In this document: positions 16,463 to 56,980 of the stretch, piece after piece | Position numbering within the stretch: position 1 is the first letter of the stretch | Layout: each line of letters begins with the position of its first letter | From: a virus | Reading direction: 5' to 3' (one strand) | Virus record (IMG/VR): IMGVR_UViG_3300028025_002566 | Location: 1 to 58,837 of that record | DNA: 58,837 nucleotides | Notes under the pieces: model-generated | What the model was told of the DNA's origin: nothing | The model's input: the letters and a program-made list of their open reading frames with translations, nothing else | Databases searched by the model: none | Made by a program: the position numbers and the translations under genes

Positions 16463-16480
16463 TCGGTACCTAATAGGAAA
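16462..16480 (+). promoter_or_regulatory. Candidate phage promoter between lysis and tail genes
   Basis: ATCGGTACCTAATAGGAAA matches the repeated motif core GGTACCTAATAG exactly. It lies right after the endolysin stop and 7 bases before the next ATG region, so it would start a transcript for the PhoH and tail genes. Confidence 0.65.
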
Positions 16481-23468: not shown

Positions 23469-24010
23469 TGTACGAACAAGATCCTTGGTCATGGGTTAAC
23501 CAACAAAAACCAGTTGCTCCATTAGGCGCGTCCATTCAACCCTCTCAAGAACAAGCACCCGGTGTATTGTATACACAACCAGATCCATTAGAACAACAAT
23601 TGCAATCTATGGCTGTAGGTAAAGGCGTTGATGCTGCTGCTACTGGCTTAAGTGCAGGATATAAAGCAGCTATGGCACCTGCTGTAGTTGCTCCTTTATC
23701 AGCAGGATCAGTATTAGGTACATCAGCACCGGCAATGTCACTTGCACCCGCTGCTACCACTGCAGCTACTGAAGGTCTTATTGCTTCTGGTATTCCCGGT
23801 TTAGCTGCCCCATTAGCTTCTACTACTGCTACAGGTGCTGCTCTTGCAGGTACGGGTACTGCAGCTACCGGTGGCGCATTAGCCTCTACTGGTGCTGCTG
23901 CAGGTACTGGAGCTGCTATGGTTGGCGGTGAGGCTGCATTAGCCGCATTAGGCCCAGTTGGTTGGGCTATTGGTGCTGGTTTACTGGCAAAGAAATTAGG
24001 AATTTTCTAA
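23468..24010 (+). CDS. Ala/Gly-rich virion protein, probable membrane-active ejection protein
   Basis: The start used is the second of two adjacent ATGs (MYEQDPWSWVNQQ, 180 residues); the first, at 23465, overlaps the previous stop. From about residue 50 the sequence is almost entirely small and hydrophobic residues (ASTTATGAALAGTGTAATGG, then LAALGPVGWAIGAGLLAKKL). Such composition suits insertion in a membrane during DNA ejection. AAGGAGATACT follows for the next gene. Confidence 0.55.
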   Translation: MYEQDPWSWVNQQKPVAPLGASIQPSQEQAPGVLYTQPDPLEQQLQSMAVGKGVDAAATGLSAGYKAAMAPAVVAPLSAGSVLGTSAPAMSLAPAATTAATEGLIASGIPGLAAPLASTTATGAALAGTGTAATGGALASTGAAAGTGAAMVGGEAALAALGPVGWAIGAGLLAKKLGIF

Positions 24011-24019
24011 GGAGATACT

Positions 24020-27000
24020 ATGGGTCCGCTTAGCGCAAAACAATATAGAGAATATTTAAAGCTTGGTGCAGATGAACAGCGTAAGAATGCTGCATTTACT
24101 CAAGAACAACAACGTAAAGATCAGCTACATCAGCTAAAGCTTAAAGAGGCTGGTGCCAAAGCGTCCCAAGGTATTGCTCACAAAGAAGAAAACCATGCGA
24201 TGAAGTTAGCTGAAGGTACTGTAAAAGTACCACGCATTAACAGACAGAAACTTGGTTTACCCTCTATGAATCCATTAGCGGATTCAGAAATATTAGGGCA
24301 AGGGCAAAGACGTTTACCCGGTATGATGCCTAAGGGTACTGATACAGTCCCTGCTATGCTCACACCCGGTGAAGCTGTTATTCCAGCTCCTGCTGCACAA
24401 AACCCTAAAAATAAAAAAGCCATTAAGAAAATGGTTAAAGAGGGTCGTAATAAAAATAAAATTATGGGTTATGCCGATGGTACTGAATATGTACAAGAAC
24501 AGGTACAACCATTAACAATCCAAGATCCACGGATGGGTTATACTGCACCTATGTATGAAGGTAAGTACATTGAAAACATTCCTACTCGTAGTAATAATCC
24601 CGGTAATCTTATGTATGCTGGTCAGCCCAATGCTATTCCCGGTGTACCTAAACCCGGTGGCGGTAGCTTTGCTCTCTTTGCTAATCCTCAATCTGGTATT
24701 GAAGCTTTAGAACGACAAGTAACAAAGAACACACAAGAACGTGGCCAAAACATTAAACAAATGATGGCTAAATACGCACCTAAGGGTGAAAATAATACTG
24801 CAAAGTATGTTAAGAACCTATCTAAAGAGATTGGTGTCAGCCCAACAGCAAAGGTTCCAATGGATAAAGTACCCGCATTGTCTCGTGCTATTAGTAAGTT
24901 TGAAGGTTACAAAGGTGAGTACTATTCTGATGGTACTACCGGCGTTAAGTACTATAATGATGGTAACGTATCTGTTCCCTTTGATGCTACTACCCAAGAA
25001 ATCCCTGTATATGTACCTCAATTATCATTAGGTACTCCAGCACCTGATCCAAGACTCTTAACTAATGCAGTACCTATTAATACTGCTGTACCCGTAGCTG
25101 TTGCTCCTTTAGCAAATACAGGTCAAGAAGCAGCCTTAACAGTAGCTCAAAGGCATAACAACCCCGGTAACCTAATCTTTGTTGGTCAAAAAGGTGCTGT
25201 TAAAGGTGAACCCAAAGCTGGTGGTGGCTATTGGGCAAGATTTGAAACACCAGAATCTGGTAGACAAGCTTTAGAAAATCAAATTAAATTAGATACTCAA
25301 GAAAGAGGTCTGACTTTATTTGATACTATGAATAAGTATGCACCTGCTGGTGACAGAAATAACCCTTCTGCGTATGCCAAGACTATTGGTGATAAATTAG
25401 GTATTTCATTAAGTGACAAAGTACCCTCTGATAAGATTGGTTTAATGGCTGATGTTATTACCAGTGTTGAGAGTGGTGGTAAATATAAAACAAATAATAA
25501 CGTTGTTGCCAGTACCCTTACCCCTGCTGAGTCAGATGAATTAGCTACTCTAAAGAAAGTAGTATCCAGCAATATTTATCCAGCTAATGAGGTTGGTAAA
25601 GCTCGTATGCGTATTCAAGAGCTTGAGAATAAAGCATTAAACGTACCTAGACCACAAGCTACCCCAGAGCAAAAACAATGGGCCGATGAGCGAAGAGGTA
25701 CTGTTAAACCTGATGTTGCACAACGAGTCGCAGCTATTGATGCTATGGTTCCTGCTGCAGTATTACCAGCTAACGAAGGTAATGTACCTCCTGCTGTTAT
25801 GCCTCCACAATTACCTGAGGCACCTTCTGTAAGCCAAGAAGTACCTAAAGATACTGCCGCATTTGATGCTATGATTGCTGGTTTCTCTCAACAGGTAGCA
25901 CCTCAAATTCAAGAAGCTACTAAGCAAGCAGAAAAGATTGTTGATCCTGTAGAAAAGAAATCTTTCTTAGAAAACTTTATTGCCGGTATTTATGGTGGTG
26001 ATAAGAGTTTATTTAATGATAAAGATCTTGCTCGATTTGCTGTAGTTGCTGCGGGTGGTTTACTAACTGGCGGTTCTGTAGGCGGTTCATTAAGATTTGC
26101 TGCTAAGGATACTCTAATTAGTGCTGACAGACGTAATGTTGCTCAAGCACAGCAGGACTTTGAACGTGAAAAGATTAAAGCAGTTGATGATCGTACTGAG
26201 CGTAATAAGTTAATTGATCAAGGTTATGAACCAGCTAATATTGATAAGTATTTAAAATCAAGAACAATTGATGATCTTGGTTCACCTAAAACAACTTATT
26301 CATTTAAAGAAACTGGTAAACAATACACTATTGATCGTGGCCCACAGTCAGGTATGGTATTCCAAGTAGTTGAAGCAACAACCAAAACTGGTAAAGGTGC
26401 TGGTGATACTATTCAAATGATAATTGACCCACGTACTAATAATAAGGTACCCTTAAGTTCTTTCCAAGCTAATGCACAAAAGTTAGGTTATAACGTAGTA
26501 GATTATTCTTCTGCAACACATTCACCTACAGCTAAAGCTAATCGGGTAAAAGAATGGGTTGAGAAAGATGCTAACACTATTGCTGACCAAGCACTAGAAC
26601 AAGTGTATGGTGCTTCTAAAGTAAAAGATAAACCTAATACTGCAAGAGCTAACGTACCTACGTCATCCGCTATTGGTGCTCAAGCTGCTTCATTCTTTAA
26701 GTCTATTGGTTTTGAACCAAGTGACTCTGGTGAAATGCTTGAAGGTAAAAACATTATGAACGTAGCTGTACAGGATATGATCAATGATCAGCAGACTCGT
26801 AAAGTAAAAGTAACAGACATTACACCTTATTTAAGCCGTTCAATGATTACAGTTCGTTCAGGTATTAACCCTGATTTATTTAAGATTGGTGCTGGTGATA
26901 AAGCTAAAGTAATGCCGCCTGAAAAGATTGTTCAGTTAGATTACTTAGTTAAACAAGCATCTTCTGATTTGGGTGGTGGTCAAACTAATGCTGCTGCACA

Positions 27001-27139
27001 ACAAGCGTTGTATCAAAAGATGGCTACAGCTTGGACTAATAACCCTAAGCTAAGAGAACAGTATGCTAAACCTGGTCCTGAAGAAAGCTCTTTCTATATG
27101 TTTATGAAAGATACTTTGTCTAAAGGACTGAAACAATAA
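24020..27139 (+). CDS. Large virion protein with duplicated NNPGN domain, candidate cell-wall hydrolase
   Basis: In 1039 residues, an N-terminal helical part leads to MPKGTDTVPAMLTPGEAV, a phrase of tape-measure-like proteins. Two copies of a roughly 90-residue domain follow, beginning RSNNPGNLMYAGQPN (about 193) and RHNNPGNLIFVGQKG (about 378), each with a SG(I/R)xAL and ERG segment. The NNPGN domain appears in phage virion proteins and probably acts as a peptidoglycan hydrolase; the reaction has not been shown here. The C-terminal half is helical. Likely ejected to open the cell wall. Confidence 0.7.
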   Translation: MGPLSAKQYREYLKLGADEQRKNAAFTQEQQRKDQLHQLKLKEAGAKASQGIAHKEENHAMKLAEGTVKVPRINRQKLGLPSMNPLADSEILGQGQRRLPGMMPKGTDTVPAMLTPGEAVIPAPAAQNPKNKKAIKKMVKEGRNKNKIMGYADGTEYVQEQVQPLTIQDPRMGYTAPMYEGKYIENIPTRSNNPGNLMYAGQPNAIPGVPKPGGGSFALFANPQSGIEALERQVTKNTQERGQNIKQMMAKYAPKGENNTAKYVKNLSKEIGVSPTAKVPMDKVPALSRAISKFEGYKGEYYSDGTTGVKYYNDGNVSVPFDATTQEIPVYVPQLSLGTPAPDPRLLTNAVPINTAVPVAVAPLANTGQEAALTVAQRHNNPGNLIFVGQKGAVKGEPKAGGGYWARFETPESGRQALENQIKLDTQERGLTLFDTMNKYAPAGDRNNPSAYAKTIGDKLGISLSDKVPSDKIGLMADVITSVESGGKYKTNNNVVASTLTPAESDELATLKKVVSSNIYPANEVGKARMRIQELENKALNVPRPQATPEQKQWADERRGTVKPDVAQRVAAIDAMVPAAVLPANEGNVPPAVMPPQLPEAPSVSQEVPKDTAAFDAMIAGFSQQVAPQIQEATKQAEKIVDPVEKKSFLENFIAGIYGGDKSLFNDKDLARFAVVAAGGLLTGGSVGGSLRFAAKDTLISADRRNVAQAQQDFEREKIKAVDDRTERNKLIDQGYEPANIDKYLKSRTIDDLGSPKTTYSFKETGKQYTIDRGPQSGMVFQVVEATTKTGKGAGDTIQMIIDPRTNNKVPLSSFQANAQKLGYNVVDYSSATHSPTAKANRVKEWVEKDANTIADQALEQVYGASKVKDKPNTARANVPTSSAIGAQAASFFKSIGFEPSDSGEMLEGKNIMNVAVQDMINDQQTRKVKVTDITPYLSRSMITVRSGINPDLFKIGAGDKAKVMPPEKIVQLDYLVKQASSDLGGGQTNAAAQQALYQKMATAWTNNPKLREQYAKPGPEESSFYMFMKDTLSKGLKQ

Positions 27140-27151
27140 ACAAGAGGTAAT

Positions 27152-30100
27152 ATGGATAGATTAGAAAAAGTATTATCAGATATTGGAATAGATGTTTCGT
27201 CTATCCCTAGAGCTTCTGACTTTAAAGTAGGTGAGAATACACTCAAAGATGCCGATACCTTTACTACTGCTGATGGTACACCAGTACGTATGAGAGGTAT
27301 TAATGCCGCAGAGACTTCAAAGGTAGATCCTTCAAGGGGTGCCTTTGAAGGATCTCAACCAGGTGCTGATACACAAACAAAGATTGTTGGAGACATTGCT
27401 CGTCAGGGTAATTTCACCACACCAATTGTTACTGAAGAGGTTGATAAATATAACCGTAGAATGGGTGATTTAGCTGACCCTTATGGTAACAAATTAACTA
27501 CCAAGCTATTAGAGATGGGTGTTGTTAATCCATCTTTAACTCCTACATTAGATCAAACTAATTCAATGTATTGGGGTAGAATTGATCGGCAACAGCGTAT
27601 TAATCAGGGCCGTAAAACTGAGGCTGATTTACTGCTAGATAAGCTTAATGAAGAAAGAAATCAATTTGGTGTACGTGCAAAAGTATTTACACCAGATGCT
27701 AAATCTTTTGGTGCTTCTGTAGATGATGCTGGTCGTAGTGATTATTTTGCTGGTCCAGCTATTGTCCGTGAAGGTGAAGATAGAACAGGTAAGGCTACAA
27801 GTAATTTATCTACAGGACTGGATATTGGCTTTGCCCAAATGCAACAAGGTTTATTTGGGGCTATTGATCTTATCGGTAAAACTACTGGATCAGAATTCTT
27901 AAGTAATGTAGGTACATCTAATGTGCGTGCATTAAAATCTGAGTTAGAATCATTACCGTATCTACGTAATGCTGAAGCTATTGATGAGAAAGGTAACTGG
28001 AAACTAGATAGTTTCAGTAAGTTAACTGACTATTTAGTTGGTACTGCTGCCTCATCTGCACCTCAAATGATTGTATCTTTAGCTTCTGCTTTTGCTGCTC
28101 CTGCTACTTTTGGTTTATCGTTATCAGCTCCTGCAGCTATCTATACAGGTAATGTATGGAACGAACAAAAAGAAAAGAACGCTGGTACCGCTTTAATCTC
28201 AGGTATTACACAAGCTGCATTAGATCGTTTAGGTATTGCTGGTTTAGTTAAAGCACCTAACCTAAACATCACATCTACAGCTACACAAGAATTAGTTAAA
28301 GCACAATTACTAAAGAAAGGTTTTAGTAAAGAAGCTGCTGAAGCTATGATTGTAAAAGCTACACAAGCGTCTGTTAAAGACGTAGCTGATGCTGCACGAA
28401 TTGTAGCTGCAAGACAACAGCTTGGCGCTCTTAATATTGGTAAAGCAGTTGGTATGGGTGCTGTATCTGAAGGCCCAACCGAAGGTCTACAAGAATTAGT
28501 ACAATACTTTGGTGAGACATCTAGTTTAAATGTACCTGAAGGCGAAGAGTATTCTAAGTTAAAGAACCGAGTACTTAATGCTACTGTAGGCGGTGCGTTA
28601 TTAGGTGGAACTATTGGTGGTACAGGTGCTGTTGCTCGTAACTTAACCTTCTCTGATAAAACAGTTAATCGGAGTAATGATGTCGAGTTCAGAGAACAGT
28701 TTAAAGGTAATGTTCCTTATGCAACTGAAGTAGCTAATGAGGCCTTTAATAGTAACCAAGAAGTTAGTTTAGATAAATTGGCCGAGGCTGAGGCTATTAA
28801 ACGATCTACTCAAGGTATCCCATCTAAGTTAAGTTCTTGGTGGGAAGATAAAGGTATTTCATCTCTATGGGATAAGTGGTCTAACACTATTATGGGTGAT
28901 AACGTTCATAAGAGTAAGTACACAGCTGCCTTAGCCACATTACTTGGTGCAGGTAATCCCCTTAATGGCTCATCTATTACTGATCAACAAGCACTATTAG
29001 AAACAAACATTCATAAGCATTTCGGTACCAAAGAAGAAATGGAATCTATGTTTAATGGTATGAATAGTAAGAATATTTCTATTCTATTATCTAACCCTAA
29101 AGTACTTGACTTAATGGAAAGACTTGTTCGTAGAAAGAAAGCTCAGTTTGCTGAGAACATGGATAATGTTGTAGGTAAGTTTGATCTTGATACTGAGCTA
29201 GGTGAATACGCACAATACAAAGATGGTATTGTTGAGTATGCTAATCGTATTGATAACCTAATTTCTACATATAACAATGCAACAAACAGTCAATTACGCT
29301 TTGACGATTTTGTTGAACAAAGACCATTAGATAAGACTGTTGTATCTAGATACTTTAAACAATTTGTTTCTGATCTATCTGATACATTAGGTTTATCTCA
29401 ACAAGAGGCAACTAAGATTGCTAACTCAGTACTCGATAACAATAACATTAACTCAATGGAAGATGCCTTAGATGACATCCTTAACTTTGATGTTGCATCT
29501 TTAAAGAATAAAGATGAGTTAGCCAAAAAGCTTTATACACCAGAAAATCGTGGTAAGTTCCAGAAATATTTTTCTCACGATATCGTAGACAATGCTTATA
29601 CATTATCTGCAAGAGGTGCTGCTAAGAATATTAATACAAATCTTATTGGTAAAGATGGTTCTAAGTTAGCTGCTTTAATTCAAGCTGCAAAAGATAATGG
29701 TGACATTACAGAACAAGAAGCCTCATTCATGGCTAAAGAGATTAAAGATTTCTTAGATATGCGTGCAGGTAAGTATCACCCCATAACTAATCCTTATGTT
29801 CGTGGTGCTTTAAGTACTGTTAACTTCTTATCTACTATTACTTCACTACCACTAGCTGCTATTAGTTCTACCGTAGAGTTTGCTCAGGTATATCGTAACC
29901 TAAATAAACCCCAATCTATTAAAGCTACTCGTATATTACTAAATACCTTTGGTAAAGAATTTGGTTCTTTGTTTAAAGAGTTAGGTGCATCGGTAACTAA
30001 CAAAGGTACTAAACCAGTAGAGCATAGGATTGCTTTATCTAATGCAGGGTATTTAAGAGAAGGTGGTATTGCTCACCGTAATGATATCATGTCTGGTTAT

Positions 30101-30940
30101 TTCCAGAAGTGGACAGAAGGTTTTTTTAAAGTCACTGGTTTGACTTCAATGACTACCATTACTCGTAATGCTAAGTTAGGTATTGCTGCAGATGCTATCA
30201 ATAGCTGGTTATCTATTGTTAAGTCAGGTGACCCAACAGATCAAGCAGTAATTGATGCCAAAGAACATTTAGTTCGATTAGGTATTGACTATGATTACAT
30301 GAATAATATTACTAAACATAGTATTGATTCAGAACAAAGAGTCTTAGACAACCTTCAAAGAGGTGCATACAACTTTATTAACGAAGCTGTGGTTATTCCT
30401 TCACAACTTAACAGACCTAAGTTCTACAGTGATCCTTACCTTAGATTGTTTACTCAATTCCAAGGCTACACATCTACTTTTACTGCTAACGTATTACCCA
30501 GATTAATTACTGATTTAAACCGTAAGGGTTCAGCAGATCAAGGTAATGCTGCAGCCACTATTGCTATGATGTTTGCTTTAGCTATGCTTGCTTTGTATAT
30601 TAAAGATATGATTAAGTATGGTGAATCACCACCTGAATGGCTCAAGGATGATAAGCAATTCCAAAGAGCTATTGGTCAAATGGGTATTTTAGGTACTGGT
30701 CAACGGGTATGGGATACAGTATCTGATATTACCGGAAACGATAAGTACAGTAAGACTGTTCTTGGCGATGTATATGAAAACATTTCTAATCAATCACCAC
30801 AACTAGCTTATATCAACAGGGTTAACTCAGCCCTCTCTGCCCAAGAAGGCAAAGAAATTGAGAAGGGTGCAAGGCTGCTTCCGATCTTCGGGACATCTCC
30901 CGCCTTTGCTAAATATCTTCAGAAAACACTCGGAGAGTAA
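27152..30940 (+). CDS. Large ejection protein with N-terminal staphylococcal-nuclease-like domain
   Basis: In 1262 residues, about 20-130 read as an SNase-type fold: LKDADTFTTADGTPVRMRGI, NAAETSK, then KYNRRMGDLADPYGNKLTTK and LLEMGVV. The Arg, Glu and second Arg expected near the active site are present. The long remainder is helical, with an apolar segment (ATIAMMFALAMLALYIKDM, about 1155) near the C-terminus. It is placed among ejection proteins. A virion-carried nuclease could act on host DNA or on periplasmic DNA. Catalysis is inferred. Confidence 0.72.
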   Translation: MDRLEKVLSDIGIDVSSIPRASDFKVGENTLKDADTFTTADGTPVRMRGINAAETSKVDPSRGAFEGSQPGADTQTKIVGDIARQGNFTTPIVTEEVDKYNRRMGDLADPYGNKLTTKLLEMGVVNPSLTPTLDQTNSMYWGRIDRQQRINQGRKTEADLLLDKLNEERNQFGVRAKVFTPDAKSFGASVDDAGRSDYFAGPAIVREGEDRTGKATSNLSTGLDIGFAQMQQGLFGAIDLIGKTTGSEFLSNVGTSNVRALKSELESLPYLRNAEAIDEKGNWKLDSFSKLTDYLVGTAASSAPQMIVSLASAFAAPATFGLSLSAPAAIYTGNVWNEQKEKNAGTALISGITQAALDRLGIAGLVKAPNLNITSTATQELVKAQLLKKGFSKEAAEAMIVKATQASVKDVADAARIVAARQQLGALNIGKAVGMGAVSEGPTEGLQELVQYFGETSSLNVPEGEEYSKLKNRVLNATVGGALLGGTIGGTGAVARNLTFSDKTVNRSNDVEFREQFKGNVPYATEVANEAFNSNQEVSLDKLAEAEAIKRSTQGIPSKLSSWWEDKGISSLWDKWSNTIMGDNVHKSKYTAALATLLGAGNPLNGSSITDQQALLETNIHKHFGTKEEMESMFNGMNSKNISILLSNPKVLDLMERLVRRKKAQFAENMDNVVGKFDLDTELGEYAQYKDGIVEYANRIDNLISTYNNATNSQLRFDDFVEQRPLDKTVVSRYFKQFVSDLSDTLGLSQQEATKIANSVLDNNNINSMEDALDDILNFDVASLKNKDELAKKLYTPENRGKFQKYFSHDIVDNAYTLSARGAAKNINTNLIGKDGSKLAALIQAAKDNGDITEQEASFMAKEIKDFLDMRAGKYHPITNPYVRGALSTVNFLSTITSLPLAAISSTVEFAQVYRNLNKPQSIKATRILLNTFGKEFGSLFKELGASVTNKGTKPVEHRIALSNAGYLREGGIAHRNDIMSGYFQKWTEGFFKVTGLTSMTTITRNAKLGIAADAINSWLSIVKSGDPTDQAVIDAKEHLVRLGIDYDYMNNITKHSIDSEQRVLDNLQRGAYNFINEAVVIPSQLNRPKFYSDPYLRLFTQFQGYTSTFTANVLPRLITDLNRKGSADQGNAAATIAMMFALAMLALYIKDMIKYGESPPEWLKDDKQFQRAIGQMGILGTGQRVWDTVSDITGNDKYSKTVLGDVYENISNQSPQLAYINRVNSALSAQEGKEIEKGARLLPIFGTSPAFAKYLQKTLGE

Positions 30941-30943
30941 ATA

Positions 30944-33900
30944 ATGGCTATTAATGTCAATGTACCTAGTCAGGTACCACCAATCGGTAATAAGTTCTTA
31001 GAACAACAACTTGCCAACCAAGCTGCTGCAAGGGCAAACGCCCAAGCAGAACTTCCTGTTAACATGCAGTCTACTGGTACACCCTTTCAAGGTAATGTAC
31101 CACCTGTACCTACTATGCCAACAGAAGAGGAGTATCAATCTTTTGCTGCTCCTAGTTTCCAACAACAAGAAATGGAACCACAACCCTTTAATGATGTTGT
31201 GGATGTACAAAGGGAAACTCTTTCAGCAACTGGTGAGTTAACTCCTTATGATGTAAGGCTACAACAATTAGAGGCTGAGAAAGCAAAACAAGCTCAGTTA
31301 GCTCAATCAGTTAATATTGATTGGGAATCACAGCAAGAGCTACGGGATGCGTTCCCTGAAGCTGTACTACCTACACAAGCAGGTACTATCCAACGTGCAG
31401 CTAAGGATGTTGGTGAAGCACTGTCTCGTAGTATGGTTAGCCTTACTGAAGAAGGTAGTGCTACACCTGTAGACTTATCCGGTATGACTTATCTTAAGCA
31501 AGGCCTTGGTTTAAGTACTAAGCAAGTAGCTTCTAACATCACATTAGCTGCTAACATGATTGCACCTATGCTTGCTGGTGCTGCTAAAACCGGTAATGGT
31601 GAAATTCAGACTGACGAAAAAGATACATTTGACTACTTGGATTCTATTCTTTCCCAAGAGGGTGATGTAGCTATCCCAAAGAGTGCTGTCAATGGCGGTG
31701 TTCCCTTAGATGTTGTTGAACAAACATTAGGTAGACTAGTTAAAAGTTATGCTAAAGGTACTCAGGTAGATGAGACTAATAATCCATTAGACCCTCGTAC
31801 CATGAAGGGTCAGAACGTAGATGCTCAGTCAGCTGGTGCTACTGCTGTTAACGCTCTTGTTGATGCTGATATTCTTACATTAGATAATGCACTCGATGGT
31901 ACTCGTATCGTTCGATTAAACCCAGTATTTGGTACTGAGTTTTATTCTAATGGCCGTAACTTAAGACGTACTTTAGGTGAGGCTGGTGCAGGTATGTCTC
32001 AGACAGTACCTGTTACTGAAGAGGGTAACTATGCTGGTGCTATGCGTAATATTCGCAGAGGTGATAAACAAAAAGTTAACTTTGAAAAATTAGATAATGT
32101 TACTGAAGCTAAACGTATTGCCGGTAGTATTGGTAGGTTAGTTGGTCCCGGTAAGGCTTATATTGGTGCAATGATGTATGGTAATGCTCTTATTGAAGCT
32201 CAAAATAACCCACAAAACCCTGCACCATTCAGTACTCTTAATTTATTTAAGATTACTAAACGAGATGTAGAAGAAGGTAGCCCTGTTGTTAAGGATAAGT
32301 TAAATAACCTTGGTAAAGAACTTACTATGCTTGCTAATGCTTTAGCTCAAGGTAATCCAAGGTATACCCCTCATTGGGAAGACTATTCAGTACACCGCTT
32401 GTACAACGATACGTTAGACTTTAACGAACAACGTAATAAGTTTACCAGAGGTATTACTAATGGCATTGGTAATCCATTTATGATGGATAGTAATTATCAT
32501 GAGACAGGTGTAAACAGATTTACCGCTGAGAAATACTGGGATAGAGTAGGTAACAAAGCAAGGTCAGGTAACTTTGATGTTGGTAGTTTGTCTTCACAAG
32601 AAAGAGAATTAGGATTCCTAATGACTCTTGGTCGAGTACTAGATGTTGGTCGTACTGTAGGTATGACTACTGAAAACATGACTGCTCCCGGTATCCTTGA
32701 AGCTGTTACTCCTAAGTTCTTGATTGAAGCTGCTCAAGTAGGATCATTATTAAAGTCAATTGTACCATCAACTAAACGCGATATTTATAACGCTATGGTT
32801 GATCCTCAAACGATAGATCCTACTAAGTTAACTAATGAACAGAAAGTTGCTTTACAAACTCTGCTAGATAACTCTGACAGAGAAACTTGGGGTTACGTAC
32901 TACAGGCTTATGTAGATGCATCTAACTATTTGGATGCTAAAAAAGGTAACAAACCATTCCTACCTAAAGCAACTGTAGCTATCGATATGAACTCTGCTGG
33001 TAGAGCGTTCTTAGCTATGGACATTGGTGAGATGAACGTTATTGAGCGTGTTGGTTTGTTATGGGAGTCTGCCGACAGAGATGGTGTATTTGATGACACA
33101 CAACCTGAAGGTAACCCAAGAACTTACTTCGTTGATGTAGCTAAGAAGCAAAGTATTGATAAAGCATTTGGTTTAGATCAACGTGAAAAGGCTTTAAAGT
33201 TTAAAGAACTGCTTAATAAGTATGAGAGCAGAGCATTCAATAAATCATTAGCCAAGAAAGTACTACTTACTACTGATTATGGTAAACCATTAGCTTATCA
33301 CTTAGAAGAAGCAAGAGCCTTCCTTAAAGATCATCCCGATTTTACTGATGAATTAGTAACATACTATAACGGTGATACAGAAGCAGCTATCAAGGACATC
33401 AATGAGATCTTTAAGTTTACACTTAAGGATGTTGTATCTGAATGGCAATTTGTATTACCAAAGAAAATGGTTAAAGTACTTCAGATGCTTGGTCGAGTGC
33501 CACATCCTGAAGGTTTATATGGTGAGAAGATGAGCCTTGGTAATATGAGTCCTGTTGAAACAGGCACTACTGTTACAATTGGTTCAGGCGCTAATGAGCG
33601 TAAGGTAAAGCTTACTCGTGCTATGTTTAACCCATTAGCAGCTGCTAAACCAAAGACATTCGAAGATGGTACTGTATGGGAACCCGGTGAAGGTACTGCC
33701 GCAATTAATCAGATCGGCCCATTACTAGGTCAGTATAGGGAGTCTGCATTAGTCATTGATACAATGAACTATGTTAACGGCGGTAAAGATCCTGCCAAGA
33801 TGATGTATATGTTACCTGTATTCGATAACTTTATTACAGATGCTACCAGTTATCCGTATGTGTTATACACTGCCAACAATATTATTGCACCTAAAGTATT

Positions 33901-34354
33901 TGAATGGGATATCCAAAAACCATTTAAAGAAGATTTTGAAAAGCAGTTAAGAGAAGCTTTTGCTGATATCCAAAAACAAGGTGAGATTGTTATTGATAGT
34001 CGCAGCCCTTATCGTGGTTTATTTGTTACATTAGATCGCGAGTATGGTTATATTCAGGATAGTAAGAACCTATCGCAAGCTCAAAAAGAGTTTAAAGAAG
34101 TATTAGATAACCCTAAGAGTGGTTATGTTAACCCTTCTGAAAGATCAGGAGCTACTGTTCTTACTCCAGCACAAGTAACATTACTTGTAAAAGCTGCTGT
34201 AGTTTATTTTGATATTTCAGGTCAACGATCTGCTAAGTCAAATAATGAAGGTGGTTTAAATAGCTGGATTAATCGTGGATTGGAAAAGAAACGTAAGGCT
34301 ATGGACAAAGTAAAACAAAAAGCTAAACAAGGCAAGATTTATTTCATGACTTAA
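30944..34354 (+). CDS. Virion-encoded single-subunit RNA polymerase candidate (N4 vRNAP-like)
   Basis: All four polymerase blocks are visible in 1136 residues. T/DxxGR-like: HRLYNDTLDFNEQRNKFTRG (484-503), which aligns with GRVYAVSMFNPQGNDMTKGL of T7. Motif A: AIDMNSAGRAFLAMDIG, Asp681. Motif B: AKKVLLTTDYGKP, Lys771 and Tyr779, the same 8-residue spacing as T7 K631/Y639. Motif C: PVFDNFITDA, Asp961, with Phe replacing the usual His. Asp681-Lys771 (90) and Asp681-Asp961 (280) resemble T7 (94 and 275). The length is near the 1.1-kb-residue polymerase core of N4 vRNAP. It is the last of the ejection-protein genes, suggesting packaging. GGAGAGTAAATA precedes the ATG. Confidence 0.75.
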   Translation: MAINVNVPSQVPPIGNKFLEQQLANQAAARANAQAELPVNMQSTGTPFQGNVPPVPTMPTEEEYQSFAAPSFQQQEMEPQPFNDVVDVQRETLSATGELTPYDVRLQQLEAEKAKQAQLAQSVNIDWESQQELRDAFPEAVLPTQAGTIQRAAKDVGEALSRSMVSLTEEGSATPVDLSGMTYLKQGLGLSTKQVASNITLAANMIAPMLAGAAKTGNGEIQTDEKDTFDYLDSILSQEGDVAIPKSAVNGGVPLDVVEQTLGRLVKSYAKGTQVDETNNPLDPRTMKGQNVDAQSAGATAVNALVDADILTLDNALDGTRIVRLNPVFGTEFYSNGRNLRRTLGEAGAGMSQTVPVTEEGNYAGAMRNIRRGDKQKVNFEKLDNVTEAKRIAGSIGRLVGPGKAYIGAMMYGNALIEAQNNPQNPAPFSTLNLFKITKRDVEEGSPVVKDKLNNLGKELTMLANALAQGNPRYTPHWEDYSVHRLYNDTLDFNEQRNKFTRGITNGIGNPFMMDSNYHETGVNRFTAEKYWDRVGNKARSGNFDVGSLSSQERELGFLMTLGRVLDVGRTVGMTTENMTAPGILEAVTPKFLIEAAQVGSLLKSIVPSTKRDIYNAMVDPQTIDPTKLTNEQKVALQTLLDNSDRETWGYVLQAYVDASNYLDAKKGNKPFLPKATVAIDMNSAGRAFLAMDIGEMNVIERVGLLWESADRDGVFDDTQPEGNPRTYFVDVAKKQSIDKAFGLDQREKALKFKELLNKYESRAFNKSLAKKVLLTTDYGKPLAYHLEEARAFLKDHPDFTDELVTYYNGDTEAAIKDINEIFKFTLKDVVSEWQFVLPKKMVKVLQMLGRVPHPEGLYGEKMSLGNMSPVETGTTVTIGSGANERKVKLTRAMFNPLAAAKPKTFEDGTVWEPGEGTAAINQIGPLLGQYRESALVIDTMNYVNGGKDPAKMMYMLPVFDNFITDATSYPYVLYTANNIIAPKVFEWDIQKPFKEDFEKQLREAFADIQKQGEIVIDSRSPYRGLFVTLDREYGYIQDSKNLSQAQKEFKEVLDNPKSGYVNPSERSGATVLTPAQVTLLVKAAVVYFDISGQRSAKSNNEGGLNSWINRGLEKKRKAMDKVKQKAKQGKIYFMT

Positions 34355-36131: not shown

Positions 36132-36208
36132 TGGTATCTCGTAGTCGATTCGAACGACTGACCGACAACTTAGAAGGTTGTTGCTCTATCCAACTGAGCT
36201 AACGAGAT
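36132..36208 (-). tRNA. tRNA-Arg (TCT)
   Basis: Acceptor ATCTCGT/ACGAGAT, D-arm GCTC...GAGC, anticodon stem ACAAC/GTTGT with loop CTTCTAA (anticodon TCT, reads AGA/AGG), T-arm AGTCG/CGACT with TTCGAAT, A73 and an encoded CCA. 77 bases. AGA is a frequent Arg codon in this AT-rich phage and often rare in hosts. Confidence 0.93.
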
Positions 36209-36212
36209 ATAA

Positions 36213-36245
36213 GTTGCTCCCTTTATTTTACTATGCGGGAGCTAC
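36213..36245. other. Hairpin in tRNA spacer
   Basis: GTTGCTCCC and GGGAGCTAC pair over 8 of 9 positions around a 15-base AT-rich loop, between two tRNA genes. It may guide processing of the polycistronic tRNA transcript. The remaining spacer (36246-36293) shows no tRNA or ORF. Confidence 0.35.
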
Positions 36246-36293
36246 ATAGGACGCCTGTTCCGCAGACGACAACGGCACCTAAGGTAGGGTGTT

Positions 36294-36367
36294 TGGAAGC
36301 GGGTACTGGATTCGAACCAGTGATGCTGCGAGCTTATGAGACTGCAGTAGTGACCACCTTACCCGCT
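36294..36367 (-). tRNA. Atypical tRNA-like gene, anticodon CAT
   Basis: Acceptor AGCGGGT/ACCCGCT, T-arm ACTGG TTCGAAT CCAGT, T73 and an encoded CCA are perfect. The loop CTCATAA gives anticodon CAT (Met, or Ile if modified). The anticodon stem only forms with a bulged C, and the D-arm region (GGTGGTCACTA) is too short and does not fold normally. 74 bases. It may be a decaying tRNA or one with a specialised role. Confidence 0.6.
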
Positions 36368-36370
36368 ATT

Positions 36371-36447
36371 TGGTCTCAAGAACCGGACTCAAACCAATAA
36401 CCAATGAATTATGAGTTCACTGCTCTAACCAGTTAAGCTATCTTGAG
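36371..36447 (-). tRNA. tRNA-Met (CAT)
   Basis: Acceptor CTCAAGA/TCTTGAG, D-arm GCTT...GAGC, anticodon stem GTGAA/TTCAT with loop CTCATAA, T-arm ATTGG/CCGGT with TTTGAGT, A73 and an encoded CCA. Elongator Met or Ile2 (lysidine-modified) cannot be separated from sequence alone. Confidence 0.88.
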
Positions 36448-36453
36448 TGTTTT

Positions 36454-36529
36454 TGGCATACCCCGTAGGACTTGAACCTACAACCTGTAGATTTGGAATC
36501 CACTGCTCTGCCAATTGAGCTAGAGGCAC
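36454..36529 (-). tRNA. tRNA-Trp (CCA)
   Basis: Anticodon stem GTGGA/TCTAC with loop TTCCAAA, T-arm GTAGG/CCTAC with TTCAAGT, D-arm GCTC...GAGC, G73 and CCA. The acceptor pairs GTGCCTC with GGGGTAT through three G-U pairs, which is weaker than usual. Confidence 0.88.
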
Positions 36530-36538
36530 ATTTGTTTT

Positions 36539-36626
36539 TGGTGGATGCTCTTGGAATCGAACCAAGTGTGCTCCTTGGAGCGGAGGATTTACAATCCCCT
36601 GAAGTCACCAATGCTTCTCAACATCC
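36539..36626 (-). tRNA. tRNA-Tyr (GTA)
   Basis: 88 bases with a long variable arm (GCTCC/GGAGC), as in bacterial class II tRNA-Tyr. Acceptor GGATGTT/AGCATCC, anticodon stem GGGGA/TCCTC with loop TTGTAAA, T-arm CTTGG/CCAAG with TTCGATT, A73 and CCA. First gene after the promoter motif at 36630. Confidence 0.9.
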
Positions 36627-36629
36627 TTT

Positions 36630-36648
36630 ACTATTAGGAACCGACTAA
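36630..36648 (-). promoter_or_regulatory. Candidate phage promoter for tRNA cluster
   Basis: On the minus strand, AGTCGGTTCCTAATAGTAA matches the repeated motif with one core change (A to T). It lies 4 bases before the first tRNA, in the short gap after the RNR small-subunit gene. Confidence 0.6.
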
Positions 36649-36657
36649 TTAAATAGT

Positions 36658-37635
36658 TTACTTAGTAATACTATCCCAAGACCAGTCACCTTCCATACCG
36701 TTAACTGAGTATTCAGTAACACGTTTCTCAAAGAAGTTATCGTGGGATACACCATTAAGAATCCAGTCTAGCCAAGTTAGTGGATTGTCTTTTACTTTGA
36801 AGTTAGTTTTAAGACCTAGTTGAAGCAATCTACGGTCGGTAATATACCGGATATACTGCTTGACATCTTCTTTAGTGATACCTTCAATATCATATTCAGC
36901 AAATGCTAAGTCAATGAAGTTATCTTCAAGACTTACCACATCACGGGCCATCTGATAGATCTTAGACTTGAATTCATCGTTAACTACTTTAAGATGTTCG
37001 TTACAAAACTCCCTGAATAGTCGTGAGTTACCTTCTACGTGTACAGTCTCATCTCGAATAGACCATTCAACAATAGTACTCATACCCTTCATCTTACCAA
37101 ACCGTTGTAGGTTAAGTAGCATAACAAAGGAAGCAAACAAAGATACACCTTCGTTTAGCACTGATTTAGCTAATGATAGAGCTAAACCAGACTGCGTTGA
37201 AGAGTCGGACCTTGCCATAAAGTCGATCTTGTCCGACATTTCTTTGTAGTCAAGGAACTTATGGAACTCTTCATCAGGTAAACCTAGTGTATCATTAAGC
37301 AAAGCATAAGCACGTTGATGAGTACCTTCACGACCAGCAAAGGAACCAAGCATTACTCGTACTTCATTGTTCTTAAACTTAGGGATTAAGTAGTCATAAT
37401 AGTTTTGCCCTACTTGTACGTCACCTTGAGTAAACAAACGAAGGATATTAGTAATAAAATCCTTTTCACTTTCTGTTAGTTTGATTTTCCAATCATTAAC
37501 ATCTTCAGATAAGTCAGCCTCATCCTCTGTCCAGTGGATTTCTTCGTGTTTCTTAGTAATCTCTACAGCCCACTCGTGATTAAATGGTTTGTAGGTTTTA
37601 GAAAAGTTTAGTAATGATGACATATTATCCTTCAC
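36658..37635 (-). CDS. nrdB: Ribonucleotide reductase class I, small subunit
   Basis: The 325-residue product has the ligand pattern of radical-bearing small subunits: TQGDVQVGQNYYDYL (first Asp), REGTHQRAY (Glu and His) and RDETVHVEGNSR (Glu and His). It generates the radical that lets the large subunit reduce ribonucleotides. It overlaps the large-subunit gene by 11 bases and follows it, as expected for a co-translated pair. Length is normal. Confidence 0.93.
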   Translation of the reverse strand: MKDNMSSLLNFSKTYKPFNHEWAVEITKKHEEIHWTEDEADLSEDVNDWKIKLTESEKDFITNILRLFTQGDVQVGQNYYDYLIPKFKNNEVRVMLGSFAGREGTHQRAYALLNDTLGLPDEEFHKFLDYKEMSDKIDFMARSDSSTQSGLALSLAKSVLNEGVSLFASFVMLLNLQRFGKMKGMSTIVEWSIRDETVHVEGNSRLFREFCNEHLKVVNDEFKSKIYQMARDVVSLEDNFIDLAFAEYDIEGITKEDVKQYIRYITDRRLLQLGLKTNFKVKDNPLTWLDWILNGVSHDNFFEKRVTEYSVNGMEGDWSWDSITK

Positions 37636-39619
37636 AAGCTTTACATTCGTTATCTTCTTCGCTCACTGTTCCGGACCCACTGTCTCGAAAGTGATTATAG
37701 AGTTCATTAAATCCTCCAATATACTTTCCGCTAAGATAGATTTGGGGTAGACTTCTGACATCAGGTCTTCCAGTGATTTCAGCCGCTGACTTACCTGTTG
37801 TAGTAATGTCAACATAGTCATATTGAATTCCTCTTGAGTCAAGGAGCGATTTAGCCATTGAGCATTGGGGACAGTTTGGTTTGCCATAGATAATTGTTTC
37901 TTTTACTTCAGTCAATTTGTTTTCTTCTACTTTTTCAGAGACATTCTCTGCTCGTTGTTTAGCTTCAGTACGTAAATAGTATAACCCTTTAAGACCTTTA
38001 TCCCAAGCAGCGTAGTGTACTGAATTAACGTATGCTCGATCAGAACCTGAAGGGAAAGCTAAGTTAACTGATTGACCTTGACACACATAGGATTGTCGAT
38101 CTGCTGCATGAGTAATAACCCAATGCTGGTCTAATTCAAAGAATGTTTTAAATACATCTTTTGTTTCTTTAGATAAATCTAAATGTTGAATACTACCTTT
38201 ATTAGTAATAATAGAAGACCAAACAGCTTCTGTGTTCATACCTAATGCATCCAGTTTCTTTTCAAGGTACTTATTTTTAACTAAGAAAGAACCTGCCCGT
38301 GTACGGTGTGTGTAGGCGTTAGCCTTATTAGGCTCGATACTAGGAGATGTACTTAAAAGAATACCCGAAGAAGCGTTAGGTGCAATAGCTAGTAAGTGAG
38401 CATTACGTTTACCACTACCAATCATATCAAGAGCTTCACCTCGATATTCACCTAACCAGAAAGTTTCTTTTTCAGCTTGCTGTTTAATCTTACTGAAGAT
38501 AGCAATGTTTTCTAGTCGCGATTTGTCAGATTCAAAAGGAATCCCGTGACGTTGTAGGTATTCATGAAACCCCATAGCACCAAGGCCAATAGATCTCTCA
38601 TGAATAGCTGAGTACTTTGCCCGTGATAAGCTATCAGGTGCGTTCTCAATGAAGTACTCAAGTACGTTATCAAGCATACGTACAAGATCCTCAATCATAT
38701 GAGTGTTCTTCCATACATCATAGTATTCTAAATTAACTGAGGACAAGCAGCATACCGCTGTTCGATCATCGGATGTTGGTAGGTGAATCTCATTGCAAAG
38801 ATTACTACCATAAATCTTAAGACCTTTACTTTTTAGTTCTTCAGGTAAAGCTTCATTAGCTGTATCAATAAAATTTAAGTAAGGCTCACCAGTACGGAAA
38901 CGAGTTTCAAGTAGCTTAGCCCAGACAGTACGTGCATCTAAGAATTCACCTGTATTACCTACCTTAGGGTCAATCAATTCGTACTTACTACCTGTTTTAA
39001 CCGCTTCCATAAATTTGTCTGAGATATTAACAGCGTTATGTAGGTTAAAGCACTTGCGGTTAGTATCTCCTGTAGGAATACGTAGACCAATGAACTCAAG
39101 AATATCAGGATGCTCAATGTTAAGGTAAGCAGCATAAGAACCTTTCCTTGTTTTACCTTGTCGGTAAGCAGTCATATCAGCATCTACTGTATGCAAGAAT
39201 GGAATAGGACCGGGTGCTACATCAGATACTGAACGAACATCAGACCAGTGACCACCAACACCACCACCCATAACTGACAACCAACGTAGTTCAGATGAGT
39301 GATCAATTAAACCTTGTACGGTATCAGGTACATAGGTTAAGAAGCAACTGATAGGTAATCCCTTAGCCTTTTGACCGTCAATAGGTGCGTTAGATAGCAC
39401 AGGTGAGGCAAACATAAACCATTTATTAGATACATAATCATATAAACGCTGTGCTAAATCTTCATCACGTACACCTTTGTATACACTCCAAGCCCATACT
39501 GCCCGTGCAAACACATCTTGAGGTGATGTTTCACCTTCCTTAGCATAGAAATCCATGATCATATCTACAGCATAATCTGTTAGTAAGTTATCACGTACAT
39601 ACTCAATTTTAATGTTCAT
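37625..39619 (-). CDS. nrdA: Ribonucleotide reductase class I, large subunit with internal glutaredoxin domain
   Basis: Residues 1-565 hold the catalytic barrel: NLCNEIHLP (active Cys), CCLSSVNLEYYDVW (redox Cys), and NASSGILLSTSPSIEPNKAN. From about 574 a complete glutaredoxin follows, with active site KPNCPQCS (Cys583, Cys586), RSLPQIYL and GGFNELY. The last residues, NECKACEG (Cys659, Cys662), look like the redox-active C-terminal tail of RNR large subunits. The 664-residue length is thus explained by an inserted reductant domain. ATP-cone is not evident. A promoter motif lies 17 bases upstream of the ATG. Confidence 0.93.
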   Translation of the reverse strand: MNIKIEYVRDNLLTDYAVDMIMDFYAKEGETSPQDVFARAVWAWSVYKGVRDEDLAQRLYDYVSNKWFMFASPVLSNAPIDGQKAKGLPISCFLTYVPDTVQGLIDHSSELRWLSVMGGGVGGHWSDVRSVSDVAPGPIPFLHTVDADMTAYRQGKTRKGSYAAYLNIEHPDILEFIGLRIPTGDTNRKCFNLHNAVNISDKFMEAVKTGSKYELIDPKVGNTGEFLDARTVWAKLLETRFRTGEPYLNFIDTANEALPEELKSKGLKIYGSNLCNEIHLPTSDDRTAVCCLSSVNLEYYDVWKNTHMIEDLVRMLDNVLEYFIENAPDSLSRAKYSAIHERSIGLGAMGFHEYLQRHGIPFESDKSRLENIAIFSKIKQQAEKETFWLGEYRGEALDMIGSGKRNAHLLAIAPNASSGILLSTSPSIEPNKANAYTHRTRAGSFLVKNKYLEKKLDALGMNTEAVWSSIITNKGSIQHLDLSKETKDVFKTFFELDQHWVITHAADRQSYVCQGQSVNLAFPSGSDRAYVNSVHYAAWDKGLKGLYYLRTEAKQRAENVSEKVEENKLTEVKETIIYGKPNCPQCSMAKSLLDSRGIQYDYVDITTTGKSAAEITGRPDVRSLPQIYLSGKYIGGFNELYNHFRDSGSGTVSEEDNECKACEG

Positions 39620-39635: not shown

Positions 39636-39658
39636 GTTAGTATTAGGCACCAACTATT
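39636..39658 (-). promoter_or_regulatory. Candidate phage promoter for RNR genes
   Basis: Minus strand AGTTGGTGCCTAATACTAAC matches the repeated motif with two changes. It fills the short gap between the T7-like RNA polymerase gene and the RNR large-subunit gene. The polymerase gene could therefore be upstream of its own product's promoter. Confidence 0.55.
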
Positions 39659-39664
39659 ACGAGA

Positions 39665-41872
39665 TTAGCAGAAAAAGTATTTAGAATCAAGGACTTCTGA
39701 GATATCAAGTGTACCTAGGAGAGGTTGACTGTAACTAAAAGTATCCTTATTAAGCATAAGAGTATCTTGTAGGACATCAAAGAAGTTTTCTACATCATAC
39801 TGTGCAATGAATGTTTGCTTAGTTACTTCCTGTAGAAAATCCACTTCACATGCATGGGTACTAAACGAATCGTGAACAGCACCAAATGAACCATTGAACC
39901 CAACAATAGTATTAGCCATGTGAGCAGCGTCATAGGAATGAACAACATTAGGACTAACACCAGACGCAAAACTACGCCGACAAGGTACACGTTCACCAGT
40001 CTCTTTGTTAAGTACGTCAACTTTAATAACGTGCATGACACGACCGTCCTTATTACCTTGAATACCTTTGATGGTACCTCGTTGTTTTCGTTCGTGTTGT
40101 AGATAAGCTTTATAAACGACAGGAAAGCCACTAGGAGTATGCCAAGTAAGATGATTCCTTCCACTATTAAGTTCATGTTCTGCAATCTTCTGTAAGTATT
40201 TAGTTGTTTTAAGAGGGCCAGCACATACTGTATTGATAGCTTGAATAAGGTTGTTAGCTAATTTATTACAGTCTTCCTCAGTAATGTTATACTTGACTGT
40301 AAAGCCTTCCATATGACAGTCATCATACATATTCTTAGCAATACGTTGTTTACCTGCTGAGTATGCACGAGTCATAGAACCACGTTTAGCAATACCTTTA
40401 CGGATATGTTTCATAGGGATCTGACGATCTTCAAACCAGTCAGGCATTACCGTAATAAGTTCTTTGGCTACAGCCACGTAGAAATCTTTCTGGATAGGTG
40501 TAGGTACTAATGATACCAAAGTACCTGCTTGTTTATCCTTAGACATAGCAGCTAAGTGTTGCCATCCGTTATTACTACCATCGATTGGGATAGGTAAACC
40601 GCTGAAGTATTCTGTACGTAAGATCTTTGCTTTATGGTATCCAGCAATCTCGATACAAGCAGCCAGAAAGCTATAAGGTTTTTCAGCGTTATGCTCGATG
40701 TGTTTAGCACGAGCTGTATTAATAATGAACTCTAAATTGTGTTTAATCCACAATGCACGGTCATCTAGGGTCATCTTATCTACAGAAATAGTATCAAGAC
40801 CTTCTTCATTGAGGTACTTAATATAGTCAGTAGTAAGGTAGTTTAGTCCTTGCAACTCGGCAATGGTATAAGATTTGTTATAGCATGCTGCGGCATGTAC
40901 ACATAACCAGTAGTATGCACGTTCATCAACTCTCTTTTTATTTCCAAATAGGAACAAGGCACGAGCCAAGTCTGAACCTTGGAATTCAAGGAATGATTCT
41001 GCGTAATATACTCGTCCTCTATAGTCACATGACACCTCTTGATAGAATGTTTTGTTACCTACTAACTCAGCCTTCTTAATGACCTGAGTGTACTCAAAGA
41101 ACTTACTAAGCATACGCTGTAACTTAGGGTCTTTCTTACCCATAAACTTAGTACCATCAAGGTGCATAAGCTTCTTAGGTAAGTGAAGGTTTTCATGGTG
41201 AATGTTGTAGAACTGTAGTTCACCATTCTCATCTACTAGATCTAAGATCTCTGGTGGCTTGGCTTCTTTCATAGCAGACAACAAGGGTTGGTTAAGTAAC
41301 CAAGGCTGTTGACGTAAAGCTTCTAAGCTACGAATGAAAGGTTTATCAAGATACTCATGGAATAGCTTGCTGTTAGTCCATCCTTTAATAAATGGATCTT
41401 TAGTCAATTGACTATACAAACCAGCGATAGGTAGCAGTGGTTCAAAAGATGTACCAATAAGAGTAGGTTTAATGTTGTCATCCATGTTAACAATACGGAT
41501 TAAGTAAGGTGCCTTACGACCTTCATACTCGCGGAATATATCGATCAATCCGTCTTGAAGAAATGTTTCTAGAAGAAGATCGCCCAAGGAGAGGGTGGTT
41601 TTGATATCTGTTTCATCAGCACCGATAGCTCTTGCGATTCTTTTGCCGATAAGATCAGATGCGAAGGTGAGCTTAACTGATGCAGAGTGTGTAGCATTTT
41701 TGTTACGGATACAGTATCTAAGAAGACTGTCCCATGCTTCGTTAATAAATCGTTCAAGGTCATACTCCCATGTTGAATGATGTGCCAGAAGACGAGCACC
41801 TTCATTTTGAATCTTATCTGAGTTGAGGATGATCTTCGATACGCGTTCAGTAAGATATTGTAGTGGATTCAT
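39665..41872 (-). CDS. T7-like single-subunit DNA-directed RNA polymerase
   Basis: 735 residues with all family motifs: SCDYRGRVYYAESF (T/DxxGR), PIDGSNNGWQHLAAMSKD (motif A Asp), IRKGIAKRGSMTRAYSAGK (motif B Lys and Tyr) and FGAVHDSFSTHA (motif C His-Asp). It is shorter than T7 RNAP (883), mainly in the N-terminal part. It transcribes from phage-specific promoters; the repeated GGTACCTAATAG motif is the best candidate. Separated by 3 bases from the upstream 49-aa gene. Confidence 0.96.
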   Translation of the reverse strand: MNPLQYLTERVSKIILNSDKIQNEGARLLAHHSTWEYDLERFINEAWDSLLRYCIRNKNATHSASVKLTFASDLIGKRIARAIGADETDIKTTLSLGDLLLETFLQDGLIDIFREYEGRKAPYLIRIVNMDDNIKPTLIGTSFEPLLPIAGLYSQLTKDPFIKGWTNSKLFHEYLDKPFIRSLEALRQQPWLLNQPLLSAMKEAKPPEILDLVDENGELQFYNIHHENLHLPKKLMHLDGTKFMGKKDPKLQRMLSKFFEYTQVIKKAELVGNKTFYQEVSCDYRGRVYYAESFLEFQGSDLARALFLFGNKKRVDERAYYWLCVHAAACYNKSYTIAELQGLNYLTTDYIKYLNEEGLDTISVDKMTLDDRALWIKHNLEFIINTARAKHIEHNAEKPYSFLAACIEIAGYHKAKILRTEYFSGLPIPIDGSNNGWQHLAAMSKDKQAGTLVSLVPTPIQKDFYVAVAKELITVMPDWFEDRQIPMKHIRKGIAKRGSMTRAYSAGKQRIAKNMYDDCHMEGFTVKYNITEEDCNKLANNLIQAINTVCAGPLKTTKYLQKIAEHELNSGRNHLTWHTPSGFPVVYKAYLQHERKQRGTIKGIQGNKDGRVMHVIKVDVLNKETGERVPCRRSFASGVSPNVVHSYDAAHMANTIVGFNGSFGAVHDSFSTHACEVDFLQEVTKQTFIAQYDVENFFDVLQDTLMLNKDTFSYSQPLLGTLDISEVLDSKYFFC

Positions 41873-56975: not shown

Positions 56976-56980
56976 GATGA

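Follow-up and report, generated by a model that had tools for sequence, protein, structure and literature searches.

The window analysed here is the whole 58,837-nt stretch IMGVR_UViG_3300028025_002566, which comes from an uncultivated phage. An open reading frame (ORF) at 30944–34354 (+) encodes a cysteine-free protein of 1136 amino acids, hereafter the window protein, that the initial annotation proposed to be a second, virion-borne RNA polymerase (RNAP) in a phage that already has a T7-like one. The ORF lies exactly at these positions and contains all four motif strings quoted for it. Most likely, this last gene of the injection-protein operon encodes a second, virus-carried RNAP of a family that databases do not recognize, and its core-sized product is a candidate ejected single-subunit RNAP (ssRNAP).

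The gene closes a rightward run of terminase, portal, scaffold, major capsid, fibre, and two large ejection-type proteins, which agrees with its earlier placement at the end of an ejection-protein run. The first of the two large proteins (24020–27139 (+), 1039 residues) matches PHROGs for tail length tape measure, endolysin, and tail injection transglycosylase, and the second (27152–30940 (+), 1262 residues) matches PHROG 6958, a virion structural protein, at E = 9.6e-34. Neither contains cysteine, and the window protein ORF starts 3 nt past the stop of the 1262-residue ORF. Facing this run is a leftward module with ribonucleotide reductase (RNR), T7-like RNAP, primase-helicase, exonuclease, and DNA polymerase. 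The T7-like RNAP, whose presence was correctly recognized at the outset, is a single chain of 735 residues with 11 cysteines (39665–41872 (-)), and the Pfam PF00940 match (E = 5.4e-56) covers its residues 351–703.

Identification of the protein family

The window protein was not identified from its single sequence by searches of Pfam, PHROGs, and PDB (phmmer) or by tblastn of 50,697 phage records. Three other family members were compared with the phage records; two found only CRP-7, a Roseobacter phage, and one found nothing. The first relatives were located in IMG/VR, one at 87% identity (G001) and one at about 45%. Further relatives were fetched through the neighbouring T7-like RNAP gene, followed by iterated profile searches of their ORFs. 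The resulting family consists of 61 ORFs, 44 of which were aligned and 17 left out, and the starting profile included CRP-7. An independent check was made on the ORFs of all loci with a profile of 12 window-type members without CRP-7, which finds CRP-7 gp33 at E = 1.5e-4. The same profile finds the other subgroups at up to 1.6e-43, the profile of the remaining members finds the window-type subgroup at E = 2.6e-58, and a scan with a third subgroup yielded one fragment only. The weak matches outside the family in two hidden Markov model searches (E about 0.1 to 1) were mostly to the T7-like RNAPs of the same phages (12 of 12 and 13 of 19).

Conservation of the catalytic motifs

Four polymerase motifs are arranged along the gene on the plus strand. 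The TxxGR-equivalent HRLYNDTLDFNEQRNKFTRG (32393–32452) contains R485, motif A AIDMNSAGRAF (32978–33010) contains D681, motif B AKKVLLTTDYGKP (33251–33289) contains K771 and Y779, and motif C PVFDNFITDA (33815–33844) contains D961. The catalytic candidates are therefore R485, D681, K771, Y779, and D961. The distances D681–K771 and D681–D961 are 90 and 280 residues, as originally read from the sequence, and the corresponding T7 spacings are 94 and 275.

Only six columns are invariant across the 44 aligned homologues; of the 43 proteins other than the window protein, 31 are 14–21% identical to it. Four of these columns are the TxxGR Arg (R485), the motif A Asp (D681), the motif B Tyr (Y779), and the motif C Asp (D961); the remaining two, G600 and R726, lie outside the named catalytic motifs. 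If columns are treated as independent and six of 1136 are invariant, D681, Y779, and D961 would all belong to those six with a probability of 8e-8, and by this measure the motif match exceeds chance. Position 771, located 8 residues before the Tyr, is Lys in 35 and Arg in 9 members, and position 960, before the motif C Asp, is His in 29 and Phe in 15.

Two motif readings in the initial annotation required revision. A T/DxxGR region had been assigned around R485: the Arg is retained in 44 of 44 members, but the Gly and the T/D are not kept and the literal motif is not there. The Arg is also the sole invariant residue of this motif in 11 aligned virion RNAP (vRNAP) cores from Schitoviridae. The Phe in place of the motif C His had been thought capable of altering or abolishing activity. 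Motif C is Phe-Asp in eight of the 11 Schitoviridae cores, N4 (IFDG) included, and His-Asp in three. Inactivation through this residue was rejected because N4 and seven of the ten other Schitoviridae cores carry Phe, and the substitution is the N4 state rather than a lesion.

Predicted structure of the window protein

An AlphaFold2 model of the window protein was built on the 44-sequence alignment and has a mean predicted local distance difference test score (pLDDT) of 83.3 and a predicted template modeling score (pTM) of 0.84. Residues 1–75 are modelled with very low confidence, and the polymerase occupies about residues 78–1136 of the model. All 50 PDB matches listed by Foldseek are mitochondrial, T7, or N4 ssRNAPs, with a best E of 1.4e-13. 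A second fold comparison gave a best Z of 23.4 for a yeast mitochondrial RNAP, Z = 18.9 for T7 RNAP (3e2e; 688 residues, 4.2 Å), and Z = 16.5 for the N4 mini-vRNAP (3c2p; 748 residues, 6.7 Å). In the alignment with T7 3e2e, the model is covered from residue 78 through to its C-terminal end and the T7 enzyme from residue 10 to its final residue, 883, which indicates that the polymerase fills the protein. Most of the strong named matches in a viral structure library are DNA-directed RNAPs or virion RNAPs. The divergent member L033, which belongs to another subgroup and is 19% identical to the window protein, was modelled with lower confidence (pLDDT 71.9, pTM 0.71), and the 50 matches listed for its model are again all ssRNAPs. 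There are no two-barrel RNAPs among the fold matches listed, a result still compatible with some similarity to them, and ssRNAP matches span model residues 87–1136. The right-hand fold that the initial annotation had asked structure prediction to look for is thus predicted, and the model describes a complete, highly diverged ssRNAP.

Relationship to the N4 virion RNA polymerase

Pairwise BLASTP gave no significant match of the window protein to the N4 core or to the T7-like RNAP of the same phage, and no useful match of CRP-7 gp33 to the N4 core. Profiles were then compared, using N4 plus ten other Schitoviridae vRNAP cores, and the residue register was read from the alignments. The family matches the Schitoviridae profile at E = 9.2e-9 and 2.6e-10, with residues 385–1011 placed on N4 core residues 327–1001. 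In this alignment, R485, D681, K771, Y779, and D961 fall on N4 core R424, D559, K670, Y678, and D951, so the proposed correspondence with the N4 active site holds in profile register. The eight pairings run as controls, six with other phage protein families and two with a shuffled or a reversed N4 profile, did no better than E = 0.05. The N4 profile matches the T7-like RNAPs of the same phages at E = 3.3e-7.

The window protein resembles the core of N4 gp50 (residues 998–2103) in its predicted right-hand ssRNAP architecture, its length of about 1100 residues, and the register of its catalytic residues. It also shares a Phe-Asp motif C, the N-x-Q-x-x-K that follows the Arg, the lack of cysteine, and its place as the last gene of a late ejection operon. 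It differs in having 1136 rather than 3500 residues, which leaves no room for the N- and C-terminal domains of N4, and in an identity of 15% in the profile alignment. The partner RNAP is one 735-residue chain in the window phage and the gp15/gp16 heterodimer in N4, and no clear hairpin promoters were found in the window lineage. Membership in the N4-type giant vRNAPs was rejected on the size of the window protein and on the single-chain partner. The likeness to T7-like RNAPs (PF00940) lies in the fold, the motif order, and the motif spacing; the window protein differs from them by the absence of a significant pairwise match, its lack of cysteine, and its location in an ejection operon. The first interpretation, an N4-like core-sized vRNAP, is partly supported, through the predicted fold, the profile register, the core size, the place in the ejection operon, and a cysteine depletion that it had not foreseen.

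Operon position and cysteine content

The window protein gene sits directly behind the two large ejection-type genes, and the N4 vRNAP gene is the last of the N4 late operon. A preprint treats the N4 vRNAP as an ejection protein that is expelled after gp52 and gp51 (PMC12633501). The 44 aligned members contain 17 cysteines in total, or 0.33 per 1000 residues, and 30 of them have none. The two neighbouring ejection-type families have 0.06 and 0 per 1000, and N4 gp50, gp51, and gp52 lack cysteine. The T7-like RNAPs of the same phages have 15 per 1000, and the range is 15–19 when primase, DNA polymerase, and RNR are included.

Within the window, five consecutive late genes (22815–34351 (+)) encode 3835 residues without a cysteine, compared with 22 cysteines in the 5191 residues of ten other late genes examined. 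The run is headed by two small proteins of 217 and 181 residues (ORFs, 22815–24010 (+)), for which no PHROG match was found at E 0.01. The Poisson probability is 9e-8 for the run, which was chosen after seeing it, and 0.008 for the window protein alone. Low cysteine thus distinguishes virion proteins clearly from cytoplasmic ones but is less sharp in telling ejection proteins from the other proteins of the virion. This compositional bias argues against a plain intracellular polymerase. The window protein is probably ejected, as judged from a gene that closes the ejection operon and a family that is nearly as cysteine-free as the ejected proteins of N4. No paper on cysteine in ejection proteins was found in the open-licence literature. 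Cysteine depletion may also serve as a cheap marker of virion or ejection proteins in other podoviruses.

Distribution in the lineage

Among loci fetched through the T7-like RNAP, a family member is present in 35 of 35 that extend at least 7 kb beyond the RNAP gene; if 5 kb is taken as the minimum, the count is 45 of 48. Two of the three loci without a member have one when the whole record is searched, and 12 of 12 records searched whole were positive. For all loci, some of which had been retrieved through the family itself or lay on the same contig, the counts are 44 of 44 (at least 7 kb) and 55 of 58 (at least 5 kb). Members uncut by a contig end have about 1130–1380 residues from stop to stop, and none is N4-sized.

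CRP-7 gp33 (QBQ72826.1), deposited as a hypothetical protein, is the positional homologue (pairwise E = 0.008). It shares with the window protein the gene place and the absence of cysteine, and differs in being 21% identical and in having His for Phe in motif C (HD). In CRP-7, the gene follows two large genes of unknown function. CRP-7 gp33–35 contain no cysteine in 3826 residues, compared with 14 in the CRP-7 RNAP. Excerpts of the CRP-7 paper name only ORF30 (T7-like) as RNAP (PMC6918029), and searches of the open-licence literature listed no paper that mentions a second RNAP for phages of the CRP-7 type.

Promoter-like motifs and the first genes

Positions 1–137 and 58701–58837 of the window repeat each other, with 131 of 137 positions identical and all six mismatches within the last 11. 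These repeated ends suggest that the contig closes on itself, with a gene order that is probably circular, and that the leftward module continues over the junction to about position 1740. Between the early and late modules, at about 1426–1875, is a strand-asymmetric stretch with an AT skew of up to +0.76 and a GC skew down to -0.67; it is GT-rich in the early reading direction, and one relative (G002) has a similar GT-rich stretch.

The motif TAGnCGGTACCTAATA[G/C] occurs at 8 sites in the window compared with 0.6 in shuffles, and each of the 11 relatives examined likewise has more copies than its shuffles (2 to 9 versus 0.1 to 0.6; 2 versus 0.5 in the weakest). Two relatives carry a CCCCTAATAG variant in place of TAGnCGGTACCTAATA, which suggests a promoter-specificity switch. 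In the late module, one copy lies 61 nt upstream of the terminase gene (1921–1937 (+)) and another is internal (16460–16476 (+)). Leftward copies are located upstream of the tRNA cluster (36631–36647 (-)), between the T7-like RNAP gene and the RNR genes (39640–39656 (-)), and at 48849–48865 (-) and 57474–57490 (-). The minus-strand copy nearest the start of the leftward module (58614–58630 (-)) is about 2.2 kb upstream of terminase across the junction, and one plus-strand copy (56979–56995 (+)) is opposed to the surrounding leftward genes. Besides the window, 4 of the 11 relatives have a copy in front of the terminase gene. The distance from that gene to the first leftward-reading copy ranges from 2.2 to 8.1 kb over the 12 genomes, and the very first genes, which lie before this copy, may need another polymerase. 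We infer that the T7-like enzyme (39665–41872) uses the TAGnCGGTACCTAATAG motif and that the ejected enzyme would read the first block.

An exact k-mer search found no second shared motif in the intergenic DNA of the window, where N4-type hairpins numbered 3 compared with 3.4 expected. A sigma-70-like site, TTGTCA-17-TATGAT, occurs at matching places in the window (736–708 (-)) and in the first-early block of G002.

Three further features were noted in the window. Four tandem tRNA genes (Arg TCT, Met CAT, Trp CCA, and Tyr GTA) lie at 36132–36626 (-) next to a promoter-like motif. The large subunit of RNR (37625–39619 (-)) has a C-terminal glutaredoxin domain (PF00462, E = 4.7e-14). A late-module gene just after a promoter-like motif (16781–17464 (+)) has a P-loop that was read by eye, and its product is possibly a PhoH-like ATPase.

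Discussion

The features of this locus are consistent with a relay of two polymerases. A catalytically competent ssRNAP would be packaged in the capsid and ejected together with the two large ejection-type (channel-type) proteins encoded just upstream. Once inside the host, the ejected enzyme would transcribe the first-entering early genes, the leftward module from near position 1740 across the contig junction. This early transcription would lead to the phage's own single-chain T7-like RNAP, which would then transcribe from TAGnCGGTACCTAATA[G/C] promoters before the middle and late genes. We regard this full course of events as likely.

Several results weigh against it. A HMMER search of PDB sequences with the family profile found no polymerase, and 34 members searched against Pfam gave three weak DNA_pol_A matches only (best E = 0.0019). 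Taken apart, the two halves of the family match N4 weakly, the 12 window-type members at E = 3.1e-5 over residues 250–709 and the other 32 at E = 9.6e-5 around motif C, and the family matches the T7-like RNAP of the same phages at a profile E of 0.015. The Foldseek TM-scores are modest, 0.34–0.45 by query length among the matches listed. Cysteine is also absent from the CRP-7 tail protein gp51 (1166 residues) and the window's scaffold (381 residues), and cysteine is scarce in the remaining structural genes of CRP-7 that were examined. The T7-class promoter-like motif (CGGTACCTAATAG in the window) was not found in CRP-7. Elsewhere its sites are few and the spacing between them is often as large as the promoter-free first gap, so the promoter-free block is weaker support and our confidence in the full course of events was lowered slightly. 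A promoter class for the ejected enzyme was looked for and not found. Hairpins with 3-nt loops in the 12 first-early blocks were in none of six settings more than 1.5 standard deviations above expectation (for example, 48 versus 38.9 expected, with a standard deviation of 6.4, and 5 versus 5.5).

The alternative that survives best keeps the protein ejected and active, but has the host RNAP share or lead early transcription and leaves the ejected enzyme mainly to draw the genome into the cell or to transcribe a few genes. Six sigma-70-like sites lie in the first block of G002 alone, where 0.9 are expected, and one of them is conserved in the window. These sites indicate that host RNAP may read the first genes in G002, and the failure to find a promoter class for the ejected enzyme points the same way. 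Such sites are not enriched overall in the first blocks of the 12 genomes (15 versus 12.7 expected), and we consider this division of labour possible, though clearly less probable than an ejected enzyme that reads the first genes.

It is unlikely that the protein is an ejection protein descended from an RNAP that now serves only as a structural part of a channel or motor and makes no RNA. The loss of the Gly and T/D of T/DxxGR and the Arg at the motif B Lys position in 9 of 44 members would fit such a history, and the N4 vRNAP is itself described as part of an ejectosome in a preprint (PMC12633501). A purely structural role is difficult to reconcile with an Arg, two Asp, and a Tyr that never vary among 44 members so divergent that almost every other position changes. 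The ratio of nonsynonymous to synonymous substitution rates between the window protein and its 87% identical relative is 0.090, about as low as the 0.071 of the T7-like RNAP. More doubtful still is an active RNAP made in the cell for late or packaging-linked transcription and never packaged. Expression from the late operon would suit that role, whereas the near-absence of cysteine recurs in the adjacent ejection-type proteins and in N4 gp50–52 and not in the intracellular RNAP of the same phages, and the gene stands directly behind two large genes, of ejection type in the window, in both the window and CRP-7. A family A DNA polymerase or a chance motif resemblance is highly improbable and was rejected, as the weak DNA_pol_A matches (3 of 34 members) stand against a PDB fold list in which the matches are only RNAPs and against control profiles that fail.

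A relay from an ejected ssRNAP to a T7-like RNAP was originally presented as a new combination of N4-like and T7-like strategies. It is not new as such, because N4 already follows its vRNAP with the T7-like heterodimer RNAPII (PMC4496689). According to Lenneman and Rothman-Denes, all but two of the holders of vRNAP homologues also have the heterodimer (PMC4496689). What would be new is the core-only size, the single-chain partner, the lineage, and perhaps the promoters. We favour, with somewhat less assurance than the relay itself, an aquatic podovirus lineage of CRP-7-type phages and uncultivated relatives whose hallmark is a stand-alone, core-sized virion ssRNAP that would need neither N4 flanks nor hairpin promoters and would be followed by a single-chain T7-like RNAP using a promoter class of its own. 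Such a lineage would represent a second, minimal kind of virion-borne transcription by a single-subunit enzyme, one that annotation libraries miss.

Other phages offer partial parallels. vB_PunP_Y3, of the proposed family Poorviridae, is reported to have an N4-type virion-encapsulated RNAP outside Schitoviridae; from its description, it differs in being proposed as N4-like-derived, with other N4 hallmark proteins (PMC11654794). The putative vRNAP of StenR_269 is likewise a large cysteine-free virion protein outside Schitoviridae, and excerpts of its report base the proposal on size, helicity, and the lack of cysteine, not on motifs or fold (PMC10747016). In P23-45, an ejected polymerase is described as reading the pre-early genes before a second phage RNAP takes over (PMC10770324). 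The virion RNAPs of P23-45 (tail-tape-fused), crAss-like phages, and phiKZ are two-barrel enzymes related to cellular ones, and the window protein is predicted to fall in the right-hand class.

In the published accounts consulted in excerpt, virion ssRNAPs are treated as a hallmark of N4-like phages, with the polymerase buried in a 3500-residue protein. The gene described here is present in every sufficiently long locus of the lineage examined and yet is without functional annotation, so the large cysteine-free virion proteins of other phages deserve the same test. An ejected polymerase could account for the expression of the earliest genes in CRP-7-type phages, and gp33 of the cultured phage CRP-7 is available as an immediate test case. 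If the protein is ejected and active, it is a natural version of about 1100–1300 residues that shows the essentials for packaging, passage through the tail, and the start of transcription.

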